DNA of 55,502 bases from positions 1 to 55,502 of the forward strand of contig NZ_JAHNZT010000044.1 of the NCBI RefSeq assembly GCF_019039035.1. Reading direction: 5' to 3'. Shown here piece after piece: positions 1 to 38,372 of this stretch (its first letter is position 1; each line of letters begins with the position of its first letter). The translations under genes and the position numbers were made by a program. The DNA is from Citreicoccus inhibens. GTDB lineage: Bacteria; Myxococcota; Myxococcia; Myxococcales; Myxococcaceae. The notes beneath the pieces are model-generated. The model searched no databases. It had not been told where the DNA came from and was given only the letters and a program-made list of their open reading frames with translations.

Positions 1-14702
<14,702 letters not shown>

Positions 14703-18000: not shown

Positions 18001-18007
18001 GCGCGCG

Positions 18008-18559
18008 TCAAGGCGAGCCCAAGGCCCGGACGACCAGGGCATCCAGCTCGATGACATCGCCGGGTGAACCTTCGTCGCCCGTCACTTGCACGGACACCCG
18101 CTCCGTTCCCGCCGGGGCCGTCAGCTCGCGAGTGGTCCGGACCCACTGGCCGGAGAGCACGGGGCTGGAGAGAGTCTCCGTCTGCAGCTCCTTGCCGCTC
18201 GAGTCTCTCCAGATGACATGCATCTCGGCGACCAGGGAGTGCCCCTGCGTTCCGCGCGCCCAGAAGGAAGCGCGGTGAGCGCCCGGCGCGGCCACGAACC
18301 CTGGCCAGTTGTCGGTGATGACGCCCCAGCCGTAGGGCTCGACCACCTCCACGCGCAGACCCGCCGCGCCGTCTCTCGCGGCGGAGGATGCTCTCGAAAC
18401 GGTGACCGCGAACCACGCCCGCCAGGTTCCAAGCCCCGACTCCAGGGAGGCCGTGTCGGCATCGAGCAGATTGGCGGTTGGAGAATGATCGATGATGGCG
18501 GGCCCGCAGGCAGTCAGCGCCAGGGCCAGCAGCGGCGCGCGCCAATGCCTCCGGTTCAT
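18008..18559 (-). CDS. Small lipoprotein with a carbohydrate-binding-like beta-sandwich
   Basis: The 183-residue precursor has a lipobox LALTAC near residue 18. The rest looks like a jelly-roll of the CBM4/9 or DUF642 kind: a strand with a single-copy ESGLGTWRAWF segment, PYGWGVITDNWPGFV, a SFWARG strand typical of CBM_4_9 modules, and a closing VIELDALVVRAL strand. Its ATG overlaps the FecR gene's stop by four bases (ATGA), so it is the last gene of the sigma/FecR operon. A role on the cell surface binding sugars, or in signalling with FecR, is possible; no catalytic residues are visible. Confidence 0.72.
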   Translation of the reverse strand: MNRRHWRAPLLALALTACGPAIIDHSPTANLLDADTASLESGLGTWRAWFAVTVSRASSAARDGAAGLRVEVVEPYGWGVITDNWPGFVAAPGAHRASFWARGTQGHSLVAEMHVIWRDSSGKELQTETLSSPVLSGQWVRTTRELTAPAGTERVSVQVTGDEGSPGDVIELDALVVRALGSP

Positions 18560-19569
18560 GGCGAGGTCTCGCGGTCCTGGCGCTCACAGGACAGCGTCAC
18601 ACGGGAACGTTGAACGGCCTCCGCGTAGCGGCCTCGCCGGAACTGTTGCTCATGCCTCGCCCAGTGCGCGCACGCGCGCGGCGCGTCCTTGAGCTGGTAC
18701 GTCAGCAACGAGCCCAGCTCGAAGCTGAGGCGCTCGCGCGTCACCAGCGGCTGCTTGCGCATCGACTCCTCAAGATATCTCGCCGCTTGCTCGAACTCGT
18801 GCCGCCCCCGCAGCACCTCCAGCTCTCGCAAGACATCGTCCACGCTCGGAGCACGCGCCGGCGTGGAAGGCACCCGGGACGCAGCGGCCTTCGTCGGGAG
18901 AGGCGCCGCGATCGGCTGCGGACGTTCTGGCTCGGGAGGAACGGGCTCGGGCGCTGGCCACTCCAGTGTCTGCCCAACCGTTACGGGGACCACCGCGCCA
19001 CTGCGCACACGGAAAGCAATGGCGCCTTCATGCAGGGTGACCGCGCCGCCGGACTCCCGCTGCTCCACCGTGAAGCGCGTGCCCATGACCTCGATGGCGC
19101 CGCCTGACACGAGCACGACGGCGGGGGGCGCACCGGGCTGGCGGTGATTCACCGAGAACTCCGCGCGGCCACGGACCAGTCGCACACCCGACGCCTCACG
19201 GCGCACGACAAGCGGTCCCTGATTTCGAAGGGTGATGCCCCGCGCCGCGTCCAACAAAGCAGCCTCGCCGCCTTGAATCTCCACGCCCGCGACGTCTTCC
19301 CGCACCTCCAGGTCAGCACTGGCCCGCGCGAGTTCAAGCCCCCCCACAGAGCGGGTGGAGGGCGTCCACAAGAGGAACACCCCGAGGGCGAGCGTTGCCG
19401 CCGCGGCGGCAAGTCCCCAGAACACCGGACGCCTGGGCCACGCGGGCTTCGGCGCGCGCGCCTCTCGCAGCCGAGCCCCCAGCCGGGCCCGGACGGCCGG
19501 TGGCATCCCTCGCTCGCGGCGGTGCGAGTCTTCACGCCGGAGGGCTGCGCGGAAGTCACGGGGAGCCAT
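18556..19569 (-). CDS. FecR-domain anti-sigma factor-like membrane protein
   Basis: This 337-residue protein has a basic cytoplasmic N-terminus (about 1-46) and one membrane helix (about 47-68, FWGLAAAAATLALGVFLLW). A periplasmic FecR domain follows, seen in the GGEAALLDAARGITL, RGRAEFSVNH and GAIEVMGTRFTVEQ segments. A Pro-rich linker then leads to a C-terminal helical region resembling a tetratricopeptide repeat. It overlaps the upstream sigma gene by 14 bases, so they are translationally coupled. FecR proteins bind the partner ECF sigma factor at the membrane and respond to periplasmic signals. No TonB-dependent receptor is adjacent, so the signal input is unclear. Confidence 0.85.
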   Translation of the reverse strand: MAPRDFRAALRREDSHRRERGMPPAVRARLGARLREARAPKPAWPRRPVFWGLAAAAATLALGVFLLWTPSTRSVGGLELARASADLEVREDVAGVEIQGGEAALLDAARGITLRNQGPLVVRREASGVRLVRGRAEFSVNHRQPGAPPAVVLVSGGAIEVMGTRFTVEQRESGGAVTLHEGAIAFRVRSGAVVPVTVGQTLEWPAPEPVPPEPERPQPIAAPLPTKAAASRVPSTPARAPSVDDVLRELEVLRGRHEFEQAARYLEESMRKQPLVTRERLSFELGSLLTYQLKDAPRACAHWARHEQQFRRGRYAEAVQRSRVTLSCERQDRETSP

Positions 19570-20116
19570 CGTCCACCTCCCATCCCCAGGCCAACAGGCG
19601 GCCCTGGGCGCGGCTGATCAACTTCGACACGTAGCCTTCCGACAGCGAGAGCAGGTGGGCAATCTCGCGCTGGCTCAGGTCATCCAGGATCTTCAAGCCC
19701 ATCACCACCCGCTCCTGCCCTGGCAAGCGGTCCAGCGTCGCCGTGGCGCTGCGCACCGCCTCTCTGCGCGCGAGGGCTGCCTCCGGCGTGGACTGCGTCT
19801 CCGCGGGTGGCGCCGGGAGAAAGAGTTCGGCGATGCGCTGTCGAAATGTCCTCTCGCGCCGCAGCGCGGAGAACGCCACGTTCTGCGTGACTCGAAAGAG
19901 CCAACCCCTCACATCCTCCTCGCGCAGCCAGGCCCGGTGCTCCCATGCCTTGAGGAAGACGTCATGCGCGACGTCCTCAGCCCAACCCGAGCGGCCCGCC
20001 GCATACCGCAGCGCCCAGACGTAGACGTCCTCGGCGTGCTCCTCGTAGAGCGTGTCGAACGACACAGGCCGGGCTGGCGGAGCGGGCGGGGCCGTGGAGG
20101 GGAGAGCGCGCGACAT
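19556..20116 (-). CDS. ECF-type RNA polymerase sigma factor
   Basis: The 186-residue protein has an ECF layout. Region 2 runs about 18-80 (DTLYEEHAEDVYVWALR, AEDVAHDVFLKAWEH, RGWLFRVTQNVA). Region 4 runs about 128-180 (LDRLPGQERVVMGLKI, LSQREIAHLLSLSEGYVSKLISRAQ). It heads an operon with the FecR-type protein and a lipoprotein. The upstream gap holds GGAAAGT-N15-CGTAG, and the same motif precedes the DUF1592 gene at 21203. This supports autoregulation and control of that operon. Confidence 0.92.
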   Translation of the reverse strand: MSRALPSTAPPAPPARPVSFDTLYEEHAEDVYVWALRYAAGRSGWAEDVAHDVFLKAWEHRAWLREEDVRGWLFRVTQNVAFSALRRERTFRQRIAELFLPAPPAETQSTPEAALARREAVRSATATLDRLPGQERVVMGLKILDDLSQREIAHLLSLSEGYVSKLISRAQGRLLAWGWEVDDGSP

Positions 20117-20131
20117 CCATCACCTGAGGAC

Positions 20132-20158
20132 CTACGATCCAAGCGGGAGAAACTTTCC
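20132..20158 (-). promoter_or_regulatory. Candidate ECF promoter of the sigma/FecR operon
   Basis: On the minus strand GGAAAGT (20152-20158) is followed after exactly 15 bases by CGTAG (20132-20136). This lies about 16 bases before the sigma-factor ATG. The same heptamer, spacing and pentamer recur at 21168-21194. ECF promoters typically have a GGAAC-like -35 and a CGT-containing -10 element. Confidence 0.62.
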
Positions 20159-20165
20159 TCGAAGG

Positions 20166-21089
20166 TTACTGCCCCCAGGAAAGCAGGGCGCCGGTTTCGA
20201 GCCTCGCGCCTCCCCGTGACCACAGCGTCTCGCCCTCGCTCACATGCGTCACAGGTCGCAGCAGCCCCAGGGCCGCGCGCGCTTCCGCCGCGAGACGCCC
20301 GGTGAGCCGCCACCGGAGCTTCATCCGCGCCCAGCCCGTGGGAGAGACCTGGGTCCCCGACGGGCTCGACAGCCCGGAGTCCTTGAGCTGGAAGACGTGG
20401 AGGACCATGCCCGCGCCCACGCCCGGTTCGAGCTGAAGGCGCTCCGCCACGGAGAGCCGATAACTCAAGAAGGCGCCACCTTGGGCCTCGAACACGGTCA
20501 GCGCCGCGTCGCGGGACATGCCGAGGCCCACCTCCGCATCCAGGCCGAATGACTCCCAGCCACGCCTGACCGAGAGCAGGAGATGCGGATCCACTCCGGG
20601 CCCACGCCAGAGTGTTCCCAACCCCAGGCTCAGGTCCAGCGAGGGACGCCAGGGCGCGGCGGCCACCTCCACGGGAGGCTGGAGCACGGGCTCGGGCTCG
20701 GGCTCGGGCACAGGCGGTGGCGCTGGCTCCGGCAGGGGCTGCACCGCCCGCGTCATCTCGGAGAGCTTCTGCGCGATCTCGAGATGAAGCTCCGAGAGAG
20801 AACCTCGCCCCACGCGAACGCCCTGTTCGACCCGCTGCTTCGGCCCCATGGCCTCCAGGCGCAGTCCTTCTGGGGTGCGACTCGCGCGCAGTCGAAGCTG
20901 CGCCGGACTCTGAGGCGAGACGACCGCGAAGCCCTCTTGAATCAGCCGCAGGGCCACCTGTCGCTCCAGCGCCACTCCGTCCCACCGTCGATAGTCCTGC
21001 TCGGGCAGGGAACGCAGGTCGAAGGACACCGACACTGCCGGAGCCTGGGTCAGGACGACGAGGGAGAGCGCGCAGAGCAGAGCAGTCAT
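20166..21089 (-). CDS. Exported protein of unknown function, possibly a small outer-membrane barrel
   Basis: With ATG at 21089 the product is 307 residues and starts with a signal peptide (MTALLCALSLVVLTQAPAVS). A GTG at 21143 in the same frame would bury the signal peptide, so I prefer the ATG. Residues up to about 125 resemble a small alpha/beta domain. A Pro-Glu-rich linker follows (PEPAPPPVPEPEPEPV). The C-terminal 160 residues show alternating hydrophobic strands (FGLDAEVGLGM, GGAFLSYRLSV, GVGAGMVLHVF, ARMKLRWRLTG), suggestive of a beta-barrel. It ends 49 bases before the sigma gene and could supply that system's envelope component. I do not recognise a family. Confidence 0.68.
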   Translation of the reverse strand: MTALLCALSLVVLTQAPAVSVSFDLRSLPEQDYRRWDGVALERQVALRLIQEGFAVVSPQSPAQLRLRASRTPEGLRLEAMGPKQRVEQGVRVGRGSLSELHLEIAQKLSEMTRAVQPLPEPAPPPVPEPEPEPVLQPPVEVAAAPWRPSLDLSLGLGTLWRGPGVDPHLLLSVRRGWESFGLDAEVGLGMSRDAALTVFEAQGGAFLSYRLSVAERLQLEPGVGAGMVLHVFQLKDSGLSSPSGTQVSPTGWARMKLRWRLTGRLAAEARAALGLLRPVTHVSEGETLWSRGGARLETGALLSWGQ

Positions 21090-21167
21090 GCGGTGGCGGC
21101 GGAGAGTACCGTCGCCCGTGTCCCCCAGCCAGCGAGGACTCACCCGTCACGCACGGGCCACCCGGCA

Positions 21168-21194
21168 GGAAAGTATTTTCGGCCACGCGCGTAG
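21168..21194 (+). promoter_or_regulatory. Candidate ECF promoter of the DUF1592/DUF1552 operon
   Basis: GGAAAGT (21168-21174) and CGTAG (21190-21194) are separated by 15 bases, matching the element before the sigma gene on the other strand. The CGTAG ends 8 bases before the ATG, so the leader would be very short. Confidence 0.6.
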
Positions 21195-21202
21195 CCAGGG
21201 TC

Positions 21203-22981
21203 ATGACGCTTCCTCGCTCCGTAAGCCTCCTGCTTCTTTGCGCTGGCGCGGTCGCCTGTGATGGCTCCATCGGGCCCAGCCATCACACGGGCGGAGACGA
21301 CCCCACTCCGCCGGCCACCTCCGATTCCGTCCGCCCGGCGCCGGCGAAGTTCTCCTGCGACGCCAACGCCGTCCCCGCGGACCTGCCGTTGCCTCGGCTC
21401 TCCCGCACGCAGTTGATGAACTCGCTTCGCTTCGCCATTGCCCGTGCGCTGCCGAACGAGGCCGACGCCATCTGGACGAAGCTCACGCCCACCCTCGCCC
21501 GCTACCCCACGGACCGGCGCACACCCGCGCCCGGTGACTTGAAGGGCGGCTTCAGCCGGTTGGATCAATCCATCCAGCAGACCCAGATCGACGTCATGTA
21601 CGACCTGGGCACCGCGGTGGCCCAGGAACTCACCAGCACCGACGCGCGCCGAAACACGCTCCTGGGGACCTGCGCGAGCGACAGCCAGACGGCCAACGAT
21701 CGCGCCTGCCTGGAGACCTTCATCCGAGGATGGGGCTCTCGCGTCCTGCGCTACCCCCTGCCGGCAACGGAGGTCACTGCCTTCGCCGACATCGCCGGGG
21801 CCACCCCGGTGGACAAGGCCGCGGTCGCGGACGTCATCACCACCCTCCTCAACTCGCCGTGGTTCCTCTATCGCGTCGAGCACGGCACCACCGCCAGCGG
21901 AGCGCTGAGCCCCCTCTCCGCGTTCGAGCTGGCGTCGAAGCTGTCCTACGAATTCTGGCAAGCCCCCCCGGATGACGCGCTCTGGGCCGCGGCGACCGAT
22001 GGCTCGCTCCTGACCGCGAGCGGCTACACCACGCAGCTCGAGCGGATGATGAAGAGCCCACAGCTGCGCAGCTCCCTGGACGAGTTCGTCAGCGAATGGC
22101 TGCGCCTCGAAGAGTTGCCGTCGCTGGTGGCGCTCCGCAACGACCCGGTCTACCAGGCCTTCGTCGGAGCGCAGATGCCGACGGACGCCACGCGCACGGC
22201 GATGTTCGAGGACGTCCAGCTCTCCGCATGGAACACCGTCGCGTCCGGCGGCTCGGTGAGCGACTTCCTGCACGACCGGCGCTCCTACACCGCGGATCCC
22301 TTCCTGGCCGCCATCTACGGTGTCCCCGTCTGGAACGGCACGGGCCCGGCACCGGTCATTCCTTCCCCGAACCGCAGCGGACTGTTGACCCGCGCGGCGC
22401 TGCTGGCCACGGGGACCGCGTCAACCCGTCCCATCCACAAGGGCTACCTGGTGCGAAACGCCCTGCTCTGCCAGCAGGTCGGCGCCCCTCCGCCCAATGC
22501 CAGCACCCGCCCGCCCGCGCCGACAGAGAGCCTCACCACGCGACAGGCGGTGACCCAGCTCACCTCCGGGGGCATCTGCGGCGGATGCCACAACAGCACC
22601 ATCAATCCACCGGGCTTCGTCCTCGAAGGATTCGATGCGCTCGGCAGAGAGCGCAGCGCGGAGCGGCTGTTCAACCCGCAAGGCAACGAGACCGCCACCT
22701 CCCCCGTGGACACCTCGGCGGACGTGCTGCTCTACGACTCCGAGAAGCAGGTCATCTCCAACGCGGTGGGGCTCTCGCAGATGCTCGATGACAGTCACCT
22801 CTTCGAGTCCTGCGTCGCGCAACACTACTTCCGCTTCGCGCACGCTCGCGTGGAGTCCACCTCACGCGATGGCTGCTTGCTGACGGAGATGGAGTCCGTC
22901 GCGCGCAGCGGCGCACCCATGGCCGACCTGCTGAAGACCGTCGCCAATCATCCCTCGTTCAAGCAGAGGAGCTTCCAGTGA
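21203..22981 (+). CDS. DUF1592/DUF1588-type secreted lipoprotein with a CxxCH motif
   Basis: The 592-residue precursor starts at ATG 21203, giving a signal peptide with lipobox (GAVAC, about residue 19). A single ORF extends upstream but overlaps the divergent gene and lacks coding character. The body has the planctomycete/myxobacterial DUF1587-1595-1592-1588-1585 pattern: LSRTQLMNSLRFA near the N-terminus, FIRGWGSRVLRYPL, LLNSPWFLYRVE, the DRRSYTADPFLAAIYG loop and, near residue 460, GGICGGCHNSTINPPGF. That last segment holds a cytochrome-c type CxxCH. It ends in GTGA overlapping the next gene. Such pairs (DUF1592 with DUF1552) are abundant in myxobacteria, but their biochemical role is not established. 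Confidence 0.88.
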   Translation: MTLPRSVSLLLLCAGAVACDGSIGPSHHTGGDDPTPPATSDSVRPAPAKFSCDANAVPADLPLPRLSRTQLMNSLRFAIARALPNEADAIWTKLTPTLARYPTDRRTPAPGDLKGGFSRLDQSIQQTQIDVMYDLGTAVAQELTSTDARRNTLLGTCASDSQTANDRACLETFIRGWGSRVLRYPLPATEVTAFADIAGATPVDKAAVADVITTLLNSPWFLYRVEHGTTASGALSPLSAFELASKLSYEFWQAPPDDALWAAATDGSLLTASGYTTQLERMMKSPQLRSSLDEFVSEWLRLEELPSLVALRNDPVYQAFVGAQMPTDATRTAMFEDVQLSAWNTVASGGSVSDFLHDRRSYTADPFLAAIYGVPVWNGTGPAPVIPSPNRSGLLTRAALLATGTASTRPIHKGYLVRNALLCQQVGAPPPNASTRPPAPTESLTTRQAVTQLTSGGICGGCHNSTINPPGFVLEGFDALGRERSAERLFNPQGNETATSPVDTSADVLLYDSEKQVISNAVGLSQMLDDSHLFESCVAQHYFRFAHARVESTSRDGCLLTEMESVARSGAPMADLLKTVANHPSFKQRSFQ

Positions 22982-24588
22982 GCAATTCACCCGTCTTCCG
23001 ATGGGATCGCCGCATGTTCCTGCGCGGCGCGGGCGGAGCCGTGCTGGCGCTGCCGCTGCTTCCATCCCTCTTGAGTCCCCGCGAGGCCAAGGCCCAGACC
23101 ACGCAGCGCCCGAAGTGCTTCGTGCATTTCCGCACGCCGCACGGCGCCATCTTTGGCGCGAACATGTGGCCAACGGACGCGGCGCTGACGCAGTCCCTGT
23201 CCTACGCGGACCACGATGTCCGGCGGGGAAACCTGGCCGCGACGACCAACGCGAGTGGTGATGCGGTCATCAGCCGGGTGCTCACCGCGAAGTCGTCCGT
23301 GCTCACGGCGGCGCTCCTCGCGAAGATGAACATCCTGCGGGGACTCGACTTCCCCATGTACATGGCTCACAACTTCGGAGCCACCCTGGGCTACTACGAC
23401 TACAACAAGGAGCGGCCCGGCTCCCCTCGCGCGACCATCGACCAGGTGATGGCCTACTCACCGGCCTTCTACCCAAGCGTCGCCTCCGTCCGGAAGCGAA
23501 GCGTCGCCATTTCCGGCTCGGACACGTCGAGCGGCAGCTGGGGATACAGCACCCCCGGGGTTCGCACCTCCGGGGTCGCGTCGAGCGCCATCAGCGGCAC
23601 CGAGAGTTCGCTCGCGCTCTTCGACACGCTGCTCGCGGGCACCAGCAGCTCTGGCGCCACCCGAGCCCCGGTGGTGGACAAGGTCCTCGAAAGCTACCGG
23701 CGCCTGCGCAATGGCAATGGTCGGCTCTCGGCCGAGGACACGGTGCGACTGGATCAGCACATCGACGCGGTCGCGGAGCTGCAGCGTCGACTGGAGACGA
23801 CCGCCAGCGCGGGTTGCCAGGTGCCGGCCCGGCCCACCACCGACAACCTGTCGCTGCGAAACTCCGGCACCTTCGGAGGAGACCCCGCGAAGAACGTCGA
23901 GTACTTCCGCCTCATCAACGAGGTGCTCGCCGTGGCGATGAACTGCGGTGTCTGCCGCATCGCCACCCTCAGCATCGATGAGAACAATCAGAACCTGACC
24001 TTCACCACCCGCGCGCCGCAGGGTGAAGACTGGCACAACAACGTCGTTCATCCCGCGACGGTGGCCGGGACGAACCAGGACCTCGTGGTCCAGTTCAACC
24101 AGGTCTTCTTCTCGCAAGTGTTCCTCGATCTCGTCTCCCGGTTCGATCGATTCTCGAACGGCGCGGGGGGAACGCTGCTGGATGACTCGCTGCTCGCGTG
24201 GGCCCAGGAGAGCGGCAACACGCCCCACTTCTCCTTCTCCATCCCGGTCGTGACCGCCGGGGGCGCGGGGGGCGCGCTCAAGACGGGCAGCTACTGCGAC
24301 TACCGGAACATCACTCGCAAGGTGAGCGGCGACTCGAGCACGGGCACCGAAGGCAACTTCCTGTGGTCGGGCCTTCTGTACAACCAGTGGCTCGGCACGG
24401 CGCTCCAGTCGATGGGCATCCCGAAGTCCGAGTGGAGCGAAACAGACCATCCCGGCTACGGCTGGAAGACGGCGTACCAGTCAACCTACGAGTACCTCTT
24501 CACGAACAATGGCTTCACCGCGGCGCAGGCCTATCCGGCGTCCATGTGGCAGAAGACCGGAGAGCTGCTGCCCTTCCTCTCTCCCTGA
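22978..24588 (+). CDS. DUF1552 protein with Tat-like signal
   Basis: The 536-residue product starts with GTG overlapping the previous stop (GTGA). Its N-terminus has a twin-arginine-type signal (DRRMFLRGAGGAVLALPLLPSLL), so it is probably exported folded. The body matches DUF1552: FVHFRTPHGAIFG, ILRGLDFPMYMAHNFG, ATIDQVMAYSP, the LNGRL-like NGRLSAEDTVRLDQHID segment and GAGGTLLDDSLLAWAQESG. The last resembles the alkaline-phosphatase-like/DUF1501 fold end. It is the usual partner of DUF1592 proteins, and the four-base overlap indicates equimolar synthesis. Function is unknown. Confidence 0.88.
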   Translation: MSNSPVFRWDRRMFLRGAGGAVLALPLLPSLLSPREAKAQTTQRPKCFVHFRTPHGAIFGANMWPTDAALTQSLSYADHDVRRGNLAATTNASGDAVISRVLTAKSSVLTAALLAKMNILRGLDFPMYMAHNFGATLGYYDYNKERPGSPRATIDQVMAYSPAFYPSVASVRKRSVAISGSDTSSGSWGYSTPGVRTSGVASSAISGTESSLALFDTLLAGTSSSGATRAPVVDKVLESYRRLRNGNGRLSAEDTVRLDQHIDAVAELQRRLETTASAGCQVPARPTTDNLSLRNSGTFGGDPAKNVEYFRLINEVLAVAMNCGVCRIATLSIDENNQNLTFTTRAPQGEDWHNNVVHPATVAGTNQDLVVQFNQVFFSQVFLDLVSRFDRFSNGAGGTLLDDSLLAWAQESGNTPHFSFSIPVVTAGGAGGALKTGSYCDYRNITRKVSGDSSTGTEGNFLWSGLLYNQWLGTALQSMGIPKSEWSETDHPGYGWKTAYQSTYEYLFTNNGFTAAQAYPASMWQKTGELLPFLSP

Positions 24589-24614
24589 CCGACGCGGGAG
24601 GCCCTGGGGACACG

Positions 24615-32090: not shown

Positions 32091-32543
32091 GTGTCCCTTT
32101 TCTCCAAGTCCATGGCCAAGTGAAACGCTCGATGCGGAAGAAGGTGTTCAGGTTCGGGCCGAGGATGGGACGAAACGGTGCCATCCCGCTGCGGCCCAAG
32201 GAAGGGCCGCGAGGATGCGGACCCGGCGAAGGGCGGCGTCCCAGCAGCTCGCGTCCATCATCCGGGGCCGCCATGCAGTGGGTACCTGCCGACCGGGCAT
32301 GAGCCTGTCTCGACTCTCCCTCGACGCGACCTCCTGTGACCCGTCGCACGTCATCTGCGCGTTCCGAACCGTCACCGAGAGCCCGCTGTCGCGATTCTTC
32401 CGCGCCGACGCGCACTGCCGACCTCACTCGCGACTGTTCCGGAGCGGGCGCCGCGACGAAGAGAGCACGACACGCTCCGCCTTCGGCGTGGCAATCTGCG
32501 CGGGTGGCTGGGCGGCACGTTGCCCCCTCCCTCGCGAGGCTCC
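32091..32543. other. Gap of 453 bases without a convincing gene
   Basis: No frame shows sustained local codon bias. On the minus strand at 32074-32184 a 36-codon frame (MAPFRPILGPNLNTFF...) has good codons for about 20 residues and then degenerates. It may be a decayed gene end. On the plus strand GCGAGGC (32532-32540 region) is the ribosome-binding site of the helicase gene at 32544. Confidence 0.35.
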
Positions 32544-35500
32544 ATGTCCACTCTTGATTCCGGCCCTGTGACGTCCTCGGTCCGGGTGGAACTCCTGACC
32601 GCGCCCTCCCTGAACTTCGCCATGGAGCAGAGTGGCGTCCCGCTCATTCGAGAGGCACGGATCCGCAACGTCGGGTCACGTGCCCTCGGGCCCACGGTCC
32701 TCGGCGTGCGCCTGGAGCCCGAGCTGGGGGACTCCGTTCGCATCCCGGTCCCGTCCATGCCCGCGGGTGAGGAGGTCAGCCTCGGAGTCATCGACCTGCG
32801 CCCACCCGCCGGACACCTGCGCACGGTGTTGGAGACCGAGCGGGCCCAGCTCCGCTGGTCGCTCCAACAGGAGTCACAGGTCCTCGCCGAGGGCACCGCG
32901 CCAGTGGAGATCCTCCCCTACAACCACTGGCCTGGAGCGAGCGCGCCGCTCGGCCTGCTGACCACCTTCGTCACGCCCAACCATCCGGTCATCCCCGAGC
33001 TCCTCAAGGACGTCCGCGCTCGGCTCGAGAAGGCGATCGGCGAGGGGGACCTGCCGGGGTATCAGCGCCACCAACCGCAGCATGTGCTGTCGATGATGGC
33101 GGCGCTCTATGGCGTCATCCAGGACCTGGGGCTCAGCTACATCGAGGCACCTCCCAGCTTCGAGTCCTTGGGACAGAAGGTGCGGCTGCCGGATCAACTC
33201 CTCCGCGAGCGGATGGGCTGCTGCCTCGACGTGACGCTGCTCTTCGCGTCCGCCCTCGAAGCCATGGGGCTCCACCCGGTGGTCCTCCTCGTCCATGGGC
33301 ACGCGCTGCTCGCCACATGGCTCATCGACGAACGATTCCCCGAGGGATGGGTCGAGGATGCGGCCCGGTTGCGGAACCTGGTATCGCTGGGCGCGCTGAT
33401 TCCCTTCGACGCCACGGCCGCGCTGGTCGCCGGGCACCCCACCTTCGAGCAGGCCATGCTCATGGGGCGCGAGTACCTCGCGGACGATGCGAACTTCCGC
33501 GCCGCGCTCGACGTGAGCGTCCTGCGCCACGACGGCTACCGCCCCCTGCCCCTTCGCAAGGTCGAAGCCCCACCCGCCGACTTCGAGTCCACCGAGCCGG
33601 CGCGCGCTCGGCTCCACACCCTCCTCGCGAGCGCAGCCGCGGCAGCTCCTGCGCAGGAGCCTCCGCCTCCGCCGCCCCAGGTCGTCTCGCGCTTCGCGCG
33701 ATGGAAGGAGAAGCTGCTCGACCTCACGTTGCGCAACAAGCTGCTCAACTTCCGCCTGGAGACGCGCGGCGCGCTGCCGCTGCACATGCCCGACCTCGCG
33801 ACGTTCGAGGACGCCTTCTCCAGCGGCGAGAGCTTCGAGATCCACCCCGCGCCCGAGTCCAGTGGCGCGGATGCGCGCGATGCGAAGCTCCAGCTCGCCC
33901 GCGGAACGGCGGATGAGCTGACCGCGCGACGACAGCAGGACCTGGACAAGGGCCTGCTGCACTCCCCGCTGCGCGAGTCCGAGCTGTGGGCTCGCGCGCG
34001 CCACCTGGAGCGGACCGCGCGCACCGACCTGGAGGAAGGGGGCGCCCATACGCTGTACCTCGCGCTGGGACTGCTGCGCTGGTTGGAGCCAGGGGATCCG
34101 ACCCCGCGCCTCGCGCCGCTCATCCTCTACCCCGCGACGTTCCGGATCGACCGCGCCCGCAAGCGCCTGCGCATCGAACGGCTGGCTGACGAGCCGATGG
34201 GCAACGTCACCCTCGCGGAGAAGCTGAAGCAAGACTTCGGACTCGACGCGCGCGCGCTCACGGCCCTGGAGGCCGATGAGAAGGGATTGGATGTCCCCAG
34301 CATCCTTCGCGCGGTACGAACCGCCATCCAGAGTCGCGCCGGCTGGGAGGTGCTCGAAGAAGCCCATGTTGGACTCTTCGCCTTCACGAAGTTCCTCATG
34401 TGGAAGGACCTGGCGGACAACGAAGCCGGCCTGCTCTCCAATCCCCTCGTGCGACACATCGCCGCGGCGGGGACGTCCGCGCCTCCAGTGGGCGGCACCG
34501 AGTTCAATCCCGAGACGCTGGACGCCGAGGTCCCCGTCGCCGACCTGCCGTGTGTCGTCAACGGTGACTCCACGCAGCTCGCGGCCATCGCCTCCGCGCT
34601 CTCGGGGCGCTCCTTCGTGCTGCAAGGCCCACCGGGGACGGGCAAGTCGCAGACCATCACCAATCTGATTGCCGCTGCCGTCGCGCGAGGCAAGTCCGTC
34701 CTCTTTGTCTCGGAGAAGATGGCCGCGCTCGAGGTCGTGCATCGCCGCCTGAAGGATGTGGGGCTGGACGACTTCTGCCTCGAACTGCACAGCCACAAGA
34801 GCAACAAGAAGGAAGTGCTCGAATCCTTCGGGCGCGCGCAGGACCGGATGCGAGGCATCCGCGAGCCGCCATGGGAAGACCGCTCACGCGAGCTGGGCAA
34901 GGCGAGGACAGCGCTCAACGACTACGTCCGCGCGGTCCATCAGCGGTGGCCCCTGGGCCAGAGTTCCTACGACGGCACGAACCGGCTGCTGCGCTTGCGT
35001 GCAGCGCCGTCCGTCGCCCTGCCCCACCCCGCGCCCGAGGCGCTCACCGAGTCCGAGCTGCGCGCGGCCCAGGAAGAGGTCGCGTCGCTCGTGAGCCCGC
35101 TGCGCAATGTCCGGGCCCTCGGCGCCCACCCCTGGGGCGCCGTGCGCGGCGTCCACTGGACGAATGCCCTGGAGGATCAGCTCCTCCGGATGCTGGGCGA
35201 AGTCCGCACCAGCCTCGACGGCGTGGACGCGACGGCGACGGGCCTCGCCTCGACCCTGGGACTCGAATCCACTCCGAACCCGACCGCGAAGCTCCGCGAC
35301 CTCGCGGAGCTGGGGCTCGTGCTGTCCAGTGGCCCCCTCCCGTCCGCGGCGCAGAGCAGTGAGGGGTGGACGCCCACCGCACAGCGCATCCGCGAGCAGG
35401 CAGGGTGCTTGCGTGAGCAGTCTTCTCGCGAGGCGGACGTCGCCTCGCGCTGGAGCCCGAGCCTCTTCTCGTTGGAGCTCACGCCCCTCCAAGCCCGCTT

Positions 35501-38372
35501 CGAGAAGTGGGCCGGAGCGTTCGTGCTGTTCGCGTTCCTCTTCCTGTGGAGCGCGCGACGCCTGCTCACGCCGCACGCCACCCGCGTGCTGCCCGGCAAC
35601 CGTGACATCGCCCGAGACCTCACCACTGCGCGACAAATCATCGCGGGCCGCCAACGCATCGAGACCCAGGGACGAGCGCTCGAAGAGCCCCTGCGAGTCC
35701 TCTCGCCCGCCGAGCAGACCCAACCCGACGCACTGGAGAGCCTGATTCAGCGCGCCTCCCAGACGCGCGACCTGAAGGAAGCCTTGGGCGTCGCGCGACT
35801 CCAGCTGCCGGGAACCTCCGCGGCCCGCGACGCGCTGCGCACCCAAGCCACGGCCCTGGAGCGCGCGCTGGAGCGACTCGCTCGCGCCGAGGCGGCCCTG
35901 GCCGAGACCGTGAAGGCACATCCCTGGGAGCAGCCGACCTCGCCGCGGCACCGTGGGTCCCTGCGATCCCAGGTCGAGGACTGGAAGAGCCACCTGCGCG
36001 CGCTCAAGCCCTGGTGCCAGTACCAGACGCAGGCCGACCGAATCCGCGCGCTGGGCTTCAGCGCCTTCGTGGACGCAGTCGAGCAGGAGAGCGTCGCGCC
36101 TGAAGCGTTGAGCGCGGTCTTCGAGCGCGCCGTGCTGACCACCTGGTCGCGCGCGCTCCGCGACAGCGAGCCCGCACTTCGCGACTTCGACGCGGACGCC
36201 CACACCGGCCGAATCGAGCGCTTCCGGCAGCTCGACCTCGCGCACGTGGGCCTCTCGCGCCAACGCGTCCTATATCAGCTCGAACAGCGGCTGCCCGTGG
36301 GCCTCGGCGCGAGCGCGGAGAGTTCGGAGCCGGGCATCCTCGCGCGCGAGCTGCGCAAGAAGCGGGGACAGATGGCGCTGCGCAAGCTGCTCGCCTCCAT
36401 TCCCAACCTCGCGCGCCGCCTCAAGCCCTGCTTCCTGATGAGCCCGTTGTCCGTCGCGCAGTACCTGCCCGCCGACGGACAGCGGTTCGATCTGCTCGTC
36501 TTCGACGAGGCCTCGCAGATCGGCACCCACGACGCCATCGGCGCGATGGCCCGAGCCAATCAAGTCATCGTCGTGGGTGACTCCAAGCAACTCCCGCCCA
36601 CGAGCTTCTTCAGTCGCGGCGAGGACGCGGAGGCCACGCCCGACGAGAACGACGTGGTCGAGTTGGAGAGCATTCTCGAAGAGGCCCTCGCCAAGCAGTT
36701 CCCCCAACAGATGTTGGGCTGGCACTACCGCAGCCGCCACGACAGCCTCATCGACTTCAGCAACCGGCAGTACTACGAGGGCCGCCTCCAGGTCTTCCCC
36801 GCGGCGCGCGCCCGCGTGGCCGACCTGGGCGTGAAGTGGCATCCCGTCCCGGACGGCGTCTATCAATCCAAGACGTCCGGCAAGACCGCGGCCATCAATC
36901 CGCGCGAGGCGGAGGCCCTGGTGGCGGAGCTCGTGAAGGCGCTCCGCAAGCACACGCCCCAGGAGCGCACGTTCGGCGTGGTCACCTTCAGCATGGTGCA
37001 GCAGCAGGTCATCCTCGACCTGCTGGATGCCGAGCGCGCGAAGCACCCGGAGCTCGAGGCGCACTTCACGTCCTCCGAGCCCGTGTTCGTCAAGAACCTG
37101 GAGAACGTCCAAGGCGACGAGCGCGACGAGATCTTCTTCAGCATCTGCTACGCCAAGGACACCGAGGGGAAGCTGCGGATGAACTTCGGCCCCCTGAGCC
37201 GCGCGGGCGGCGAGCGCCGACTCAACGTGGCGGTGACGCGTGCCCGCTGTGCCCTGCGCATCTTCTCCACCTTGACGCATGAGCAGATCGACCTGTCGCG
37301 CACGACCTCGGTGGGCGCGCGCCACCTGCGCGAGTTCCTGCGCCGCGCCGCGGAGTCCGCCTCGCCGTCGAGCACGAACACCCGGGAGCCCGAGGACGCA
37401 CTCCCACAGGACGTGGCGGCCTCGCTGCGCGCGCTGGGCTACACGGTCCATTCGGACGTGGGCACGGGCGGCTACCGCGTGGATCTCGCCGTGGAGCATC
37501 CGTCGCGCCCCGGCGAGTACGTGCTCGGCGTGGAGTGCGACGGGCCCCACTATCGCGCGGCGTCCAGCGCCCGAGACCGCGAGCGGCTGCGGCCCGAGGT
37601 CCTGCAAGGCCTGGGATGGCGCCTGGCTCGCGTCTGGTCGCTCGCCTGGGAGGAGGACCGAGCGGGACAGCTGCAACGCCTCGCTGCCGCCGTGAAGGAC
37701 GCGGTGGAGGGGGCGCCCCTCGCCGCGGTGGCTCCTCGGCTGGAAGACCCATCGGCCGAGGCGGCCATCCCAAGCGCACCGCCTGCGGAGCAGCCAGGGG
37801 CCACGACGTCGGCGCGCGGCGCGGCGGTGCAGGCCTACGTCCCCGCGACGCTCCCGGCCGTGAGGGAGGGCGCGGACTTCTTCGCCCCCACGTCGGCCTC
37901 GCGACTGCGTGAACAACTCCAGTCCGTGCTCGAACAGGAAGGCCCCATCCACGAGGAGCTGCTCGCGCGACGCATCCAAGAGGCCTGGGGCTTGGGCAAG
38001 CTGACCCCTCGCGTCCGCAAGCGCATGGAGGAACAGCTGGCGGAGCTGGTCCAGCGCGGCGCCATCCTCGCGCAAGGGGAGTTCCTCTGGGCCGGATCGC
38101 GGAGACCCGCTCAGTTCACGGGCTTCCGCGGCGCGCACGACGACCGGGACGTCAGCCAGATTCCGCCCGAGGAGCTGGCCAACGCCGCCGCCGCAGTGCT
38201 CGCCCACGCGCTCTCGATGGAGCGCGACGAGCTGCTCCGCGAGACAGGGCGGCACTTCGGGGTGAGCCGGCTGACGCGCACCGTGGTGCCGGTGCTCGAA
38301 GCGGGCCTGGAGCTGCTCGCCCGCGAGGGGCGGTGCACCCTCGCGGGCGAGCGGGTCATCTGGCGGGAGTAG
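32544..38372 (+). CDS. DUF4011-type SF1 helicase-nuclease with transglutaminase-like N-terminus
   Basis: The 1942-residue protein starts at ATG 32544, 4 bases after GCGAGGC. Approximate domains: beta-sandwich (10-130); transglutaminase-like (195-295) with candidate Cys in RMGCCLD (226), His in VHGHALLATW (253) and Asp in PFDAT (288); DUF4011 (from 385, WKEKLLDLTLRNKLLNF); UvrD/Upf1-like helicase with Walker A GPPGTGKS (695), Walker B FDEAS (1318), GDSKQLPPTSF, and motif VI RRLNVAVTRAR; a PD-(D/E)XK nuclease (1625-1700, VDLAVEH then VECDG); and a DUF3320-like winged helix at the end. A hydrophobic GAFVLFAFLFLW segment near 990 lies inside the helicase insertion. It is likely a DNA-processing enzyme, in repair or phage defence, but no partner gene supports either. 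Confidence 0.88.
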   Translation: MSTLDSGPVTSSVRVELLTAPSLNFAMEQSGVPLIREARIRNVGSRALGPTVLGVRLEPELGDSVRIPVPSMPAGEEVSLGVIDLRPPAGHLRTVLETERAQLRWSLQQESQVLAEGTAPVEILPYNHWPGASAPLGLLTTFVTPNHPVIPELLKDVRARLEKAIGEGDLPGYQRHQPQHVLSMMAALYGVIQDLGLSYIEAPPSFESLGQKVRLPDQLLRERMGCCLDVTLLFASALEAMGLHPVVLLVHGHALLATWLIDERFPEGWVEDAARLRNLVSLGALIPFDATAALVAGHPTFEQAMLMGREYLADDANFRAALDVSVLRHDGYRPLPLRKVEAPPADFESTEPARARLHTLLASAAAAAPAQEPPPPPPQVVSRFARWKEKLLDLTLRNKLLNFRLETRGALPLHMPDLATFEDAFSSGESFEIHPAPESSGADARDAKLQLARGTADELTARRQQDLDKGLLHSPLRESELWARARHLERTARTDLEEGGAHTLYLALGLLRWLEPGDPTPRLAPLILYPATFRIDRARKRLRIERLADEPMGNVTLAEKLKQDFGLDARALTALEADEKGLDVPSILRAVRTAIQSRAGWEVLEEAHVGLFAFTKFLMWKDLADNEAGLLSNPLVRHIAAAGTSAPPVGGTEFNPETLDAEVPVADLPCVVNGDSTQLAAIASALSGRSFVLQGPPGTGKSQTITNLIAAAVARGKSVLFVSEKMAALEVVHRRLKDVGLDDFCLELHSHKSNKKEVLESFGRAQDRMRGIREPPWEDRSRELGKARTALNDYVRAVHQRWPLGQSSYDGTNRLLRLRAAPSVALPHPAPEALTESELRAAQEEVASLVSPLRNVRALGAHPWGAVRGVHWTNALEDQLLRMLGEVRTSLDGVDATATGLASTLGLESTPNPTAKLRDLAELGLVLSSGPLPSAAQSSEGWTPTAQRIREQAGCLREQSSREADVASRWSPSLFSLELTPLQARFEKWAGAFVLFAFLFLWSARRLLTPHATRVLPGNRDIARDLTTARQIIAGRQRIETQGRALEEPLRVLSPAEQTQPDALESLIQRASQTRDLKEALGVARLQLPGTSAARDALRTQATALERALERLARAEAALAETVKAHPWEQPTSPRHRGSLRSQVEDWKSHLRALKPWCQYQTQADRIRALGFSAFVDAVEQESVAPEALSAVFERAVLTTWSRALRDSEPALRDFDADAHTGRIERFRQLDLAHVGLSRQRVLYQLEQRLPVGLGASAESSEPGILARELRKKRGQMALRKLLASIPNLARRLKPCFLMSPLSVAQYLPADGQRFDLLVFDEASQIGTHDAIGAMARANQVIVVGDSKQLPPTSFFSRGEDAEATPDENDVVELESILEEALAKQFPQQMLGWHYRSRHDSLIDFSNRQYYEGRLQVFPAARARVADLGVKWHPVPDGVYQSKTSGKTAAINPREAEALVAELVKALRKHTPQERTFGVVTFSMVQQQVILDLLDAERAKHPELEAHFTSSEPVFVKNLENVQGDERDEIFFSICYAKDTEGKLRMNFGPLSRAGGERRLNVAVTRARCALRIFSTLTHEQIDLSRTTSVGARHLREFLRRAAESASPSSTNTREPEDALPQDVAASLRALGYTVHSDVGTGGYRVDLAVEHPSRPGEYVLGVECDGPHYRAASSARDRERLRPEVLQGLGWRLARVWSLAWEEDRAGQLQRLAAAVKDAVEGAPLAAVAPRLEDPSAEAAIPSAPPAEQPGATTSARGAAVQAYVPATLPAVREGADFFAPTSASRLREQLQSVLEQEGPIHEELLARRIQEAWGLGKLTPRVRKRMEEQLAELVQRGAILAQGEFLWAGSRRPAQFTGFRGAHDDRDVSQIPPEELANAAAAVLAHALSMERDELLRETGRHFGVSRLTRTVVPVLEAGLELLAREGRCTLAGERVIWRE

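Follow-up and report, generated by a model that had tools for sequence, protein, structure and literature searches.

The locus described here raises the question of whether a single regulator reads two identical promoter-like sequences that lie about 1 kb apart. In the window (the whole stretch of Citreicoccus inhibens DNA that was analysed, 55,502 nucleotides) GGAAAGT-N15-CGTAG is found twice within 1.1 kb, on opposite strands and each time ahead of a start codon, as an earlier sequence-only reading had noticed; both 27-mers proved to be exact. Promoters of extracytoplasmic function (ECF) sigma factors have this general form, with a GGAA-type upstream box, a spacer and a CGT-type box, and the FecI/FecR systems pair such a sigma factor with a membrane anti-sigma factor. 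The two elements belong to a block of six genes, with the following features.

18008..24588, both strands: the six-gene block, which 19 other genomes share as a unit but not with the flanks seen in the window
18008..18559, minus strand: small lipoprotein, encoded at the end of the sigma operon and adjacent to FecR in each of the 20 cassettes and in Archangium
18556..19569, minus strand: FecR-domain protein, presumed membrane anti-sigma factor (Pfam and hydrophobicity)
19556..20116, minus strand: ECF sigma factor, 186 aa, with only regions 2 and 4 (Pfam, NCBIfam and profile)
20132-20158, minus strand: candidate promoter element GGAAAGT-N15-CGTAG, exact, ending 15 nt before the ATG at 20116 of the sigma gene
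20166..21089, minus strand: protein of some 307 aa with no Pfam match, presumed to act as envelope partner or sensor; longest open reading frame to 21143
21168-21194, plus strand: candidate promoter element GGAAAGT-N15-CGTAG, exact, ending 8 nt before the ATG at 21203 of the DUF1592 gene
21203..22981, plus strand: exported lipoprotein, 592 aa, with DUF1595/DUF1592/DUF1588/DUF1585 (PSD5, PSD4, PSCyt3, PSD2; Pfam)
22978..24588, plus strand: DUF1552 (HXXSHH) protein, 536 aa, with a twin-arginine (Tat) type signal (Pfam and N-terminus)

The sigma factor has the make-up of group IV (ECF), with Sigma70_r2 at residues 23-89, Sigma70_r4_2 at residues 126-170, a short linker, and neither region 3 nor any other sigma region in Pfam. 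It scores 80.2 bits against TIGR02937 (cut-off 42.9), its top NCBIfam match is the Bacteroidetes-named subfamily TIGR02985 (90.3 bits, below the cut-off of 126.4), and its profile matches the solved ECF factors SigE, SigW and SigL. The FecR gene overlaps the end of the sigma gene, and its product has a single strong hydrophobic stretch at residues 49-67 followed by a FecR domain at residues 125-184 (PF04773, 29.3 bits, above the cut-off of 24). The small lipoprotein shows a weak match to a carbohydrate-binding family (CBM_4_9 in Pfam, 23.3 bits, below the cut-off of 25.9).

The gene for the 307-aa protein is the only one between the two elements and lies on the sigma strand. Relatives show homology to the 325-aa open reading frame (20166-21143) from residues 15-19 onward in 15 of 19 cases, and from residues 3-7 in four, so that translation probably starts near the ATG at 21089 (residue 19). 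The protein has a hydrophobic N-terminus resembling a signal peptide, and its structural model, of low confidence (mean pLDDT 52), combines a small alpha/beta portion with a C-terminal portion rich in strands. On the other side of the second element, the DUF1592 protein carries a CxxCH haem-c motif (CGGCH) and matches PF07631, PF07627, PF07637 and PF07624 above their curated cut-offs (90.8, 84.2, 42.6 and 33.6 bits). The DUF1552 protein likewise matches PF07586 above its curated cut-off (70.7 bits), and since the start of its gene overlaps the DUF1592 stop codon, the two presumably form one operon. By their sequences both products look exported, one as a lipoprotein with a haem-c motif and the other as a Tat substrate. 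Neither has a solved relative by sequence at E<=0.1; the mean pLDDT of the DUF1592 model is 51, and this model and that of the 307-aa protein are too low in confidence for a fold search.

Two other large genes were seen in the window. The first (312-14702) encodes a 4796-aa non-ribosomal peptide synthetase with four condensation, four AMP-binding and five carrier domains and one thioesterase. The second (32520-38372) encodes a 1950-aa helicase/nuclease-like protein with DUF4011, AAA_11/12, MTES_1575 and DUF3320, which we take to be of a type seen in defence loci.

The rarity of the motif was assessed over the whole assembly (9,046,820 bases in 123 contigs). Instead of a random spread along the genome, a scan for GGAAAGT-N14..16-CGTAG returned only the two sites in the window, a result in favour of the sequence-only reading; the pattern read backward, used as a control, gave three matches in the same 9.05 Mb. 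The chance that two random matches in 9.05 Mb fall within 1.1 kb is about 2 x 1.1/9050 = 2.4e-4, a figure that leaves out their position, each immediately before a start codon and on the proper strand. At one mismatch (N15) there were 14 matches, including the two in the window, against 27 for the backward control, and thus no excess of sites elsewhere in the genome. At this stringency the regulon that can be detected in the genome seems to consist of the two promoters alone. A wider regulon in the same genome was considered and set aside, as nothing beyond the two sites exceeds the control at up to one mismatch. The surroundings of 25 sites over three genomes were inspected, among them eight of the 12 other one-mismatch sites of this genome, and an open frame of 226-980 codons crosses each of those eight; such frames say little, because the DNA is G+C-rich and long frames cross the two real sites too.

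We then turned to related genomes, using a family set of 96 in which 28 have a relative of the sigma factor at E<=1e-20. A close form (82-100% identity) is present in 20, the genome of the window included, and the other 19 regions were compared with the window. The site ahead of the sigma gene is exact in all 20, and that ahead of the DUF1592 gene in 17; the remaining three (L064, L077 and L082) have A for C as the first base of CGTAG. The distance from element to start codon is 15 nt for 17 of the 20 sigma genes (the start in L079 being our own guess) and 8 nt for 19 of the 20 DUF1592 genes; other distances may reflect mis-set starts. Mean column identity at the two sites is 1.00 and 0.99 for the boxes, 0.84 and 0.88 for the spacers and 0.79 and 0.72 for the 20 nt upstream, although column tests overstate significance because the rows are related and conservation is partly shared descent. 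At both sites in all 20 genomes the element faces its gene, and it lies inside the block and not at the block ends. The close sigma factor and the close DUF1592 protein are present in exactly the same 20 of the 96 genomes, which is weak evidence as the two are neighbours. One region (L082:4923-5308) also carries a second, partial small lipoprotein gene near a one-mismatch motif, CGAAAGT-N15-CGTAG.

The six genes are shared well beyond their surroundings. Positions 18001-24600 of the window were matched in all 19 other regions, over 6.6-7.0 kb. When the flanks of the window were compared with each of these regions, the left flank (4 kb) was matched in one (L067), as far as the fetched regions reach, and the right flank (4.4 kb) in none within the same reach, not even in the same-genus genome L064. 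The six genes thus behave as a unit set in different surroundings.

A similar element is found ahead of most genes for more distant relatives of the sigma factor. Ten such genes were considered, nine at 39-51% identity and L180 at 48%; a FecR gene lies alongside nine of them and the 307-aa gene alongside six, with L086 cut by a contig end. The pattern GGAAA-N17-[CG]GT lies within 150 nt upstream of seven (L084, L085 and L087-L091) and was not found over the same distance ahead of L083, L086 and L180. It was found ahead of none of 18 unrelated ECF genes, a control from which eight of 26 loci had been dropped for want of a tblastn anchor. L085, L090 and L091 have CGTGG in place of the CGTAG of the Myxococcus group.

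A rearranged locus in Archangium lansinium (L037, the same place as G041) separates the motif from the gap in which it lies in the window. The sigma factor there is 67% identical to that of the window, and the DUF1592 and DUF1552 genes (41% and 46% identity) lie past the small lipoprotein gene, convergent, at the opposite end of the sigma operon. The exact motif precedes the DUF1592 gene, as GGAAAGTTTGTTGGGCCTCGTTCGTAG, 32 nt before the start codon; the motif therefore goes with the DUF1592/DUF1552 operon and not with the gap between genes. At the place ahead of the Archangium sigma gene the motif is degenerate, so that autoregulation is not kept everywhere. In trees of both the DUF1592 and the DUF1552 proteins the Archangium operon groups with that of G019 and not directly with the Myxococcus type (AU p 0.00018 and 0.005, the tested group having been named after the first tree was seen). 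With DUF1552 the clade of the Myxococcus type is the neighbour of the Archangium/G019 pair (86/87), and with DUF1592 it is placed close to that pair. That Archangium recruited a second DUF1592 operon independently was considered and not adopted, as one ancestral linked operon with a later loss in G019 fits too.

Specificity was examined on operons away from the sigma gene. The DUF1592 protein as query (E<=1e-60) identified 51 places across 37 genomes, comprising the 20 beside a close sigma gene, that of Archangium and 30 others. None of these 30 unlinked DUF1592/DUF1552 operons has the motif ahead of it at up to one mismatch; in L113 a one-mismatch match lies about 3 kb from the operon, on the other strand, and a looser ECF-like pattern occurs within 600 nt upstream of one of the 30 (L104). 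Four sigma-bearing genomes (G080, G081, G095 and G101) contribute second copies to this set of 30. The set also includes the operon of G019, the nearest relative of that of Archangium, which lacks the site in a genome whose best sigma match is at 1e-11, with none at 1e-20. Since the unlinked proteins are only 30-45% identical, absence of the site could also reflect a different function. The link that the sequence-only reading drew between the sigma/FecR system and DUF1592/DUF1552 is thus supported by comparison of sequences, through the conserved boxes, the Archangium arrangement and the 30 unlinked operons.

A motif common to the unlinked operons was looked for and rejected, the commonest 8-mers being G+C-rich repeats in up to eight of the 30. 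The 8-mer TGAGCCGT, which is not ECF-like, occurs upstream of DUF1592 in six of them (L095, L098, L104, L110, L115 and L122). In four (L116, L102, L098 and L104) a different ECF sigma gene and/or a FecR-like gene lies within about 3 kb, by weak matches only. ECF control of unlinked DUF1592/DUF1552 operons may be more general.

Across the 96 genomes the exact motif has 51 matches in the 21 with the close or the Archangium sigma factor, against 19 in the other 75, which include seven with a distant sigma relative; the backward control gave six and 35 matches, respectively. The 51 comprise 20 sigma sites, 17 DUF1592 sites, the one Archangium DUF1592 site, seven orthologous new sites, two orthologous sites of another kind and four others, of which those in G080 and G081 are the same 27-mer. 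The two sites of another kind (L193:3057 and L194:2983, in the related sigma-bearing genomes G091 and G094) lie 36 nt before a GTG-started gene for a 464-aa lipoprotein, and the protein of L193 has no Pfam match above cut-off.

The seven new sites (L186-L192, in G083, G084, G085, G091, G092, G093 and G094) lie 41-317 nt before a gene that is not linked to the cassette and encodes a protein of some 903 aa, whose N-terminus marks it as a lipoprotein. In the one protein scanned, that of G092, an Apiosidase catalytic domain (113 bits, cut-off 26.5) is accompanied by a Collagen_bind_2 domain. The full-length protein is present at E<=1e-50 in exactly seven of the 96 genomes, all of them sigma-bearing and all with the motif; 12 others match only residues ~505-769, and the genome of the window has no such gene at E<=1e-50. 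The co-occurrence with the sigma factor would have a chance of 6.5e-6 if genomes were independent, an assumption that fails because all seven belong to one genus. The seven sites go back to a single ancestral sequence and are counted as one event.

A probable origin of this sequence can be suggested. A search with 128 bases of the apiosidase site found nine places in eight of the 96 genomes, one of which covers the Archangium DUF1592 promoter, its leader and the first codons of the gene (85% identity, E 5e-33). In five of the seven genomes the first codons of an Archangium-like DUF1592 signal peptide can be read 33 nt after the motif and then run out, and in G093 the relic start is ACG for ATG. 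The simplest reading of these sequences is that an Archangium-type DUF1592 operon was lost and that the apiosidase gene is now served by the promoter left behind. The ninth of these places (L203, a second, degenerate copy of the DUF1592-type promoter and leader, in G083) has GGAAGGT for GGAAAGT, with no apiosidase gene seen behind it. The sequence that follows this copy looks transposase-like by eye.

Taken together, these comparisons make it very probable that the ECF sigma factor of the cassette uses each of the two elements as the -35 and -10 boxes of a promoter, driving the sigma-FecR-lipoprotein operon on one side and the DUF1592-DUF1552 operon on the other. Three other accounts of the repeats were weighed against this. 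Chance resemblance of two short intergenic sequences might be entertained as the pattern has only 12 fixed bases, but the only two matches in the genome are separated by about 1.0 kb, and conservation of the boxes across 20 genomes in effect refutes it; the sequence-only reading had been right to think a chance match unlikely. That the repeats are binding sites for a repressor or activator, or some other DNA signal, is very improbable: a 7+5 bp pattern that recurs might serve as an operator, but a GGAA-type box, N15 and a CGT-type box, followed after 8 or 15 nt by a start codon, have the form of an ECF promoter. The element also faces its gene at either site in all 20 genomes and lies within the block and not at its ends, which tells against such a role.

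Somewhat less improbable, yet still unlikely, is the account in which the elements are true ECF-type promoters that are read mainly by another ECF sigma factor, the neighbouring sigma gene being merely one of its targets. The genome has 24 sigma matches at E<=1e-3, that of the cassette included, and cross-reading is possible. Against it, the exact motif does not rise above background where the close sigma factor is absent (75 genomes with 19 matches and 35 in the control, compared with 51 and six in the other 21), and the G019 operon, in a genome with no close sigma factor, has no site. A like element before seven of ten related sigma genes and before none of the 18 unrelated ECF genes also argues against it, and we favour control by the sigma factor of the cassette itself.

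Under control by its own sigma factor, the cassette could work as follows. The FecR protein, as the putative anti-sigma factor, would keep the sigma factor inactive at the inner membrane, and the 307-aa envelope protein, a possible outer partner with a sensing role, may help to hold it so. An envelope signal, perhaps a carbohydrate, would free the sigma factor, which would then increase expression of its own operon and of the two exported products. The element before the sigma gene would thereby drive sigma-FecR-lipoprotein expression as positive autoregulation, and the element of opposite direction the DUF1592-DUF1552 operon; in seven related genomes the freed sigma factor would also raise the apiosidase-like lipoprotein gene. 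The shared motif before the sigma operon and before its target predicts an autoregulated ECF system, with the Archangium sigma gene as the exception. With 8 nt from the -10 box to the ATG, the DUF1592 mRNA would be nearly leaderless, which is not general as the distance is 32 nt in Archangium. The small lipoprotein and the apiosidase target perhaps lean towards a carbohydrate role. A fuller picture, of a self-contained cassette that moves laterally, passes its promoter to new genes and commands a carbohydrate-responsive regulon in which DUF1592 and DUF1552 act on carbohydrates as a redox pair, is put forward tentatively, and we consider it rather doubtful as a whole.

What is unusual in this ECF/FecR system is its partner and its target; it does not amount to a new class. 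As in FecI/FecR, the ECF sigma gene is followed by an overlapping FecR-domain gene whose product has one strong hydrophobic stretch, and the adjoining targets encode exported proteins. In contrast to FecI/FecR, none of the six proteins has a TonB-dependent receptor match in Pfam (nor one of SusC/SusD type), the 307-aa protein is without any match, and the targets are DUF1592/DUF1552. In the available text of one survey, AAC and CGT are the earlier hallmark boxes of ECF promoters, and most ECF operons are autoregulated with FecI-like ones as exceptions (PMC8103513); unlike those, the present system is predicted to be autoregulated, with the same element before the sigma gene in all 20 close genomes.

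The idea that ECF factors control this protein group has been raised before, as Studholme et al. proposed that the ECF factor RB10049 of Rhodopirellula baltica regulates RB10051 (PSD1/PSCyt2), and in the available part of that account a table on stress response also lists RB9955, a secreted protein with DUF1552, next to RB10049 (PMC2754498). There too an ECF sigma factor is proposed to act on a gene of the planctomycete-specific domain/cytochrome group, but the domain set is DUF1553/DUF1549, the phylum is another, and the account, in that part, gives no promoter motif and no FecR protein. Sigma/anti-sigma systems of Bacteroides affect polysaccharide utilisation loci according to the accessible text of PMC13088901, and resemble the present one in anti-sigma control, in carbohydrate-related exported proteins and in TIGR02985, the best NCBIfam match of our sigma factor; they differ in that here no SusC/SusD-type match is present and the sigma factor falls below the TIGR02985 cut-off, and the same text says that its anti-sigma factors occur solely in Bacteroidota. 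In freshwater Verrucomicrobia, PSCyt3 genes are paired with a second family of unknown function, as the PSCyt3 gene here adjoins a partner of unknown function, and the authors suggest a carbohydrate role for PSCyt genes, some of which carry binding modules (PMC5615132, in part); sigma factors and FecR are absent from its main text, and its passage on the PSCyt3 pair is silent on regulation. Within the literature found, much of it available in part and with most subscription papers outside the search, no function is shown for DUF1592 or DUF1552 and a link between a sigma/FecR system and DUF1592/DUF1552 is not described.

DUF1592 and DUF1552 are Pfam families of unknown function, and a sigma factor of their own, acting through two or three promoters that can be recognised, would offer a direct way into what they do, with the apiosidase target pointing to carbohydrates as the first class of signal to consider.
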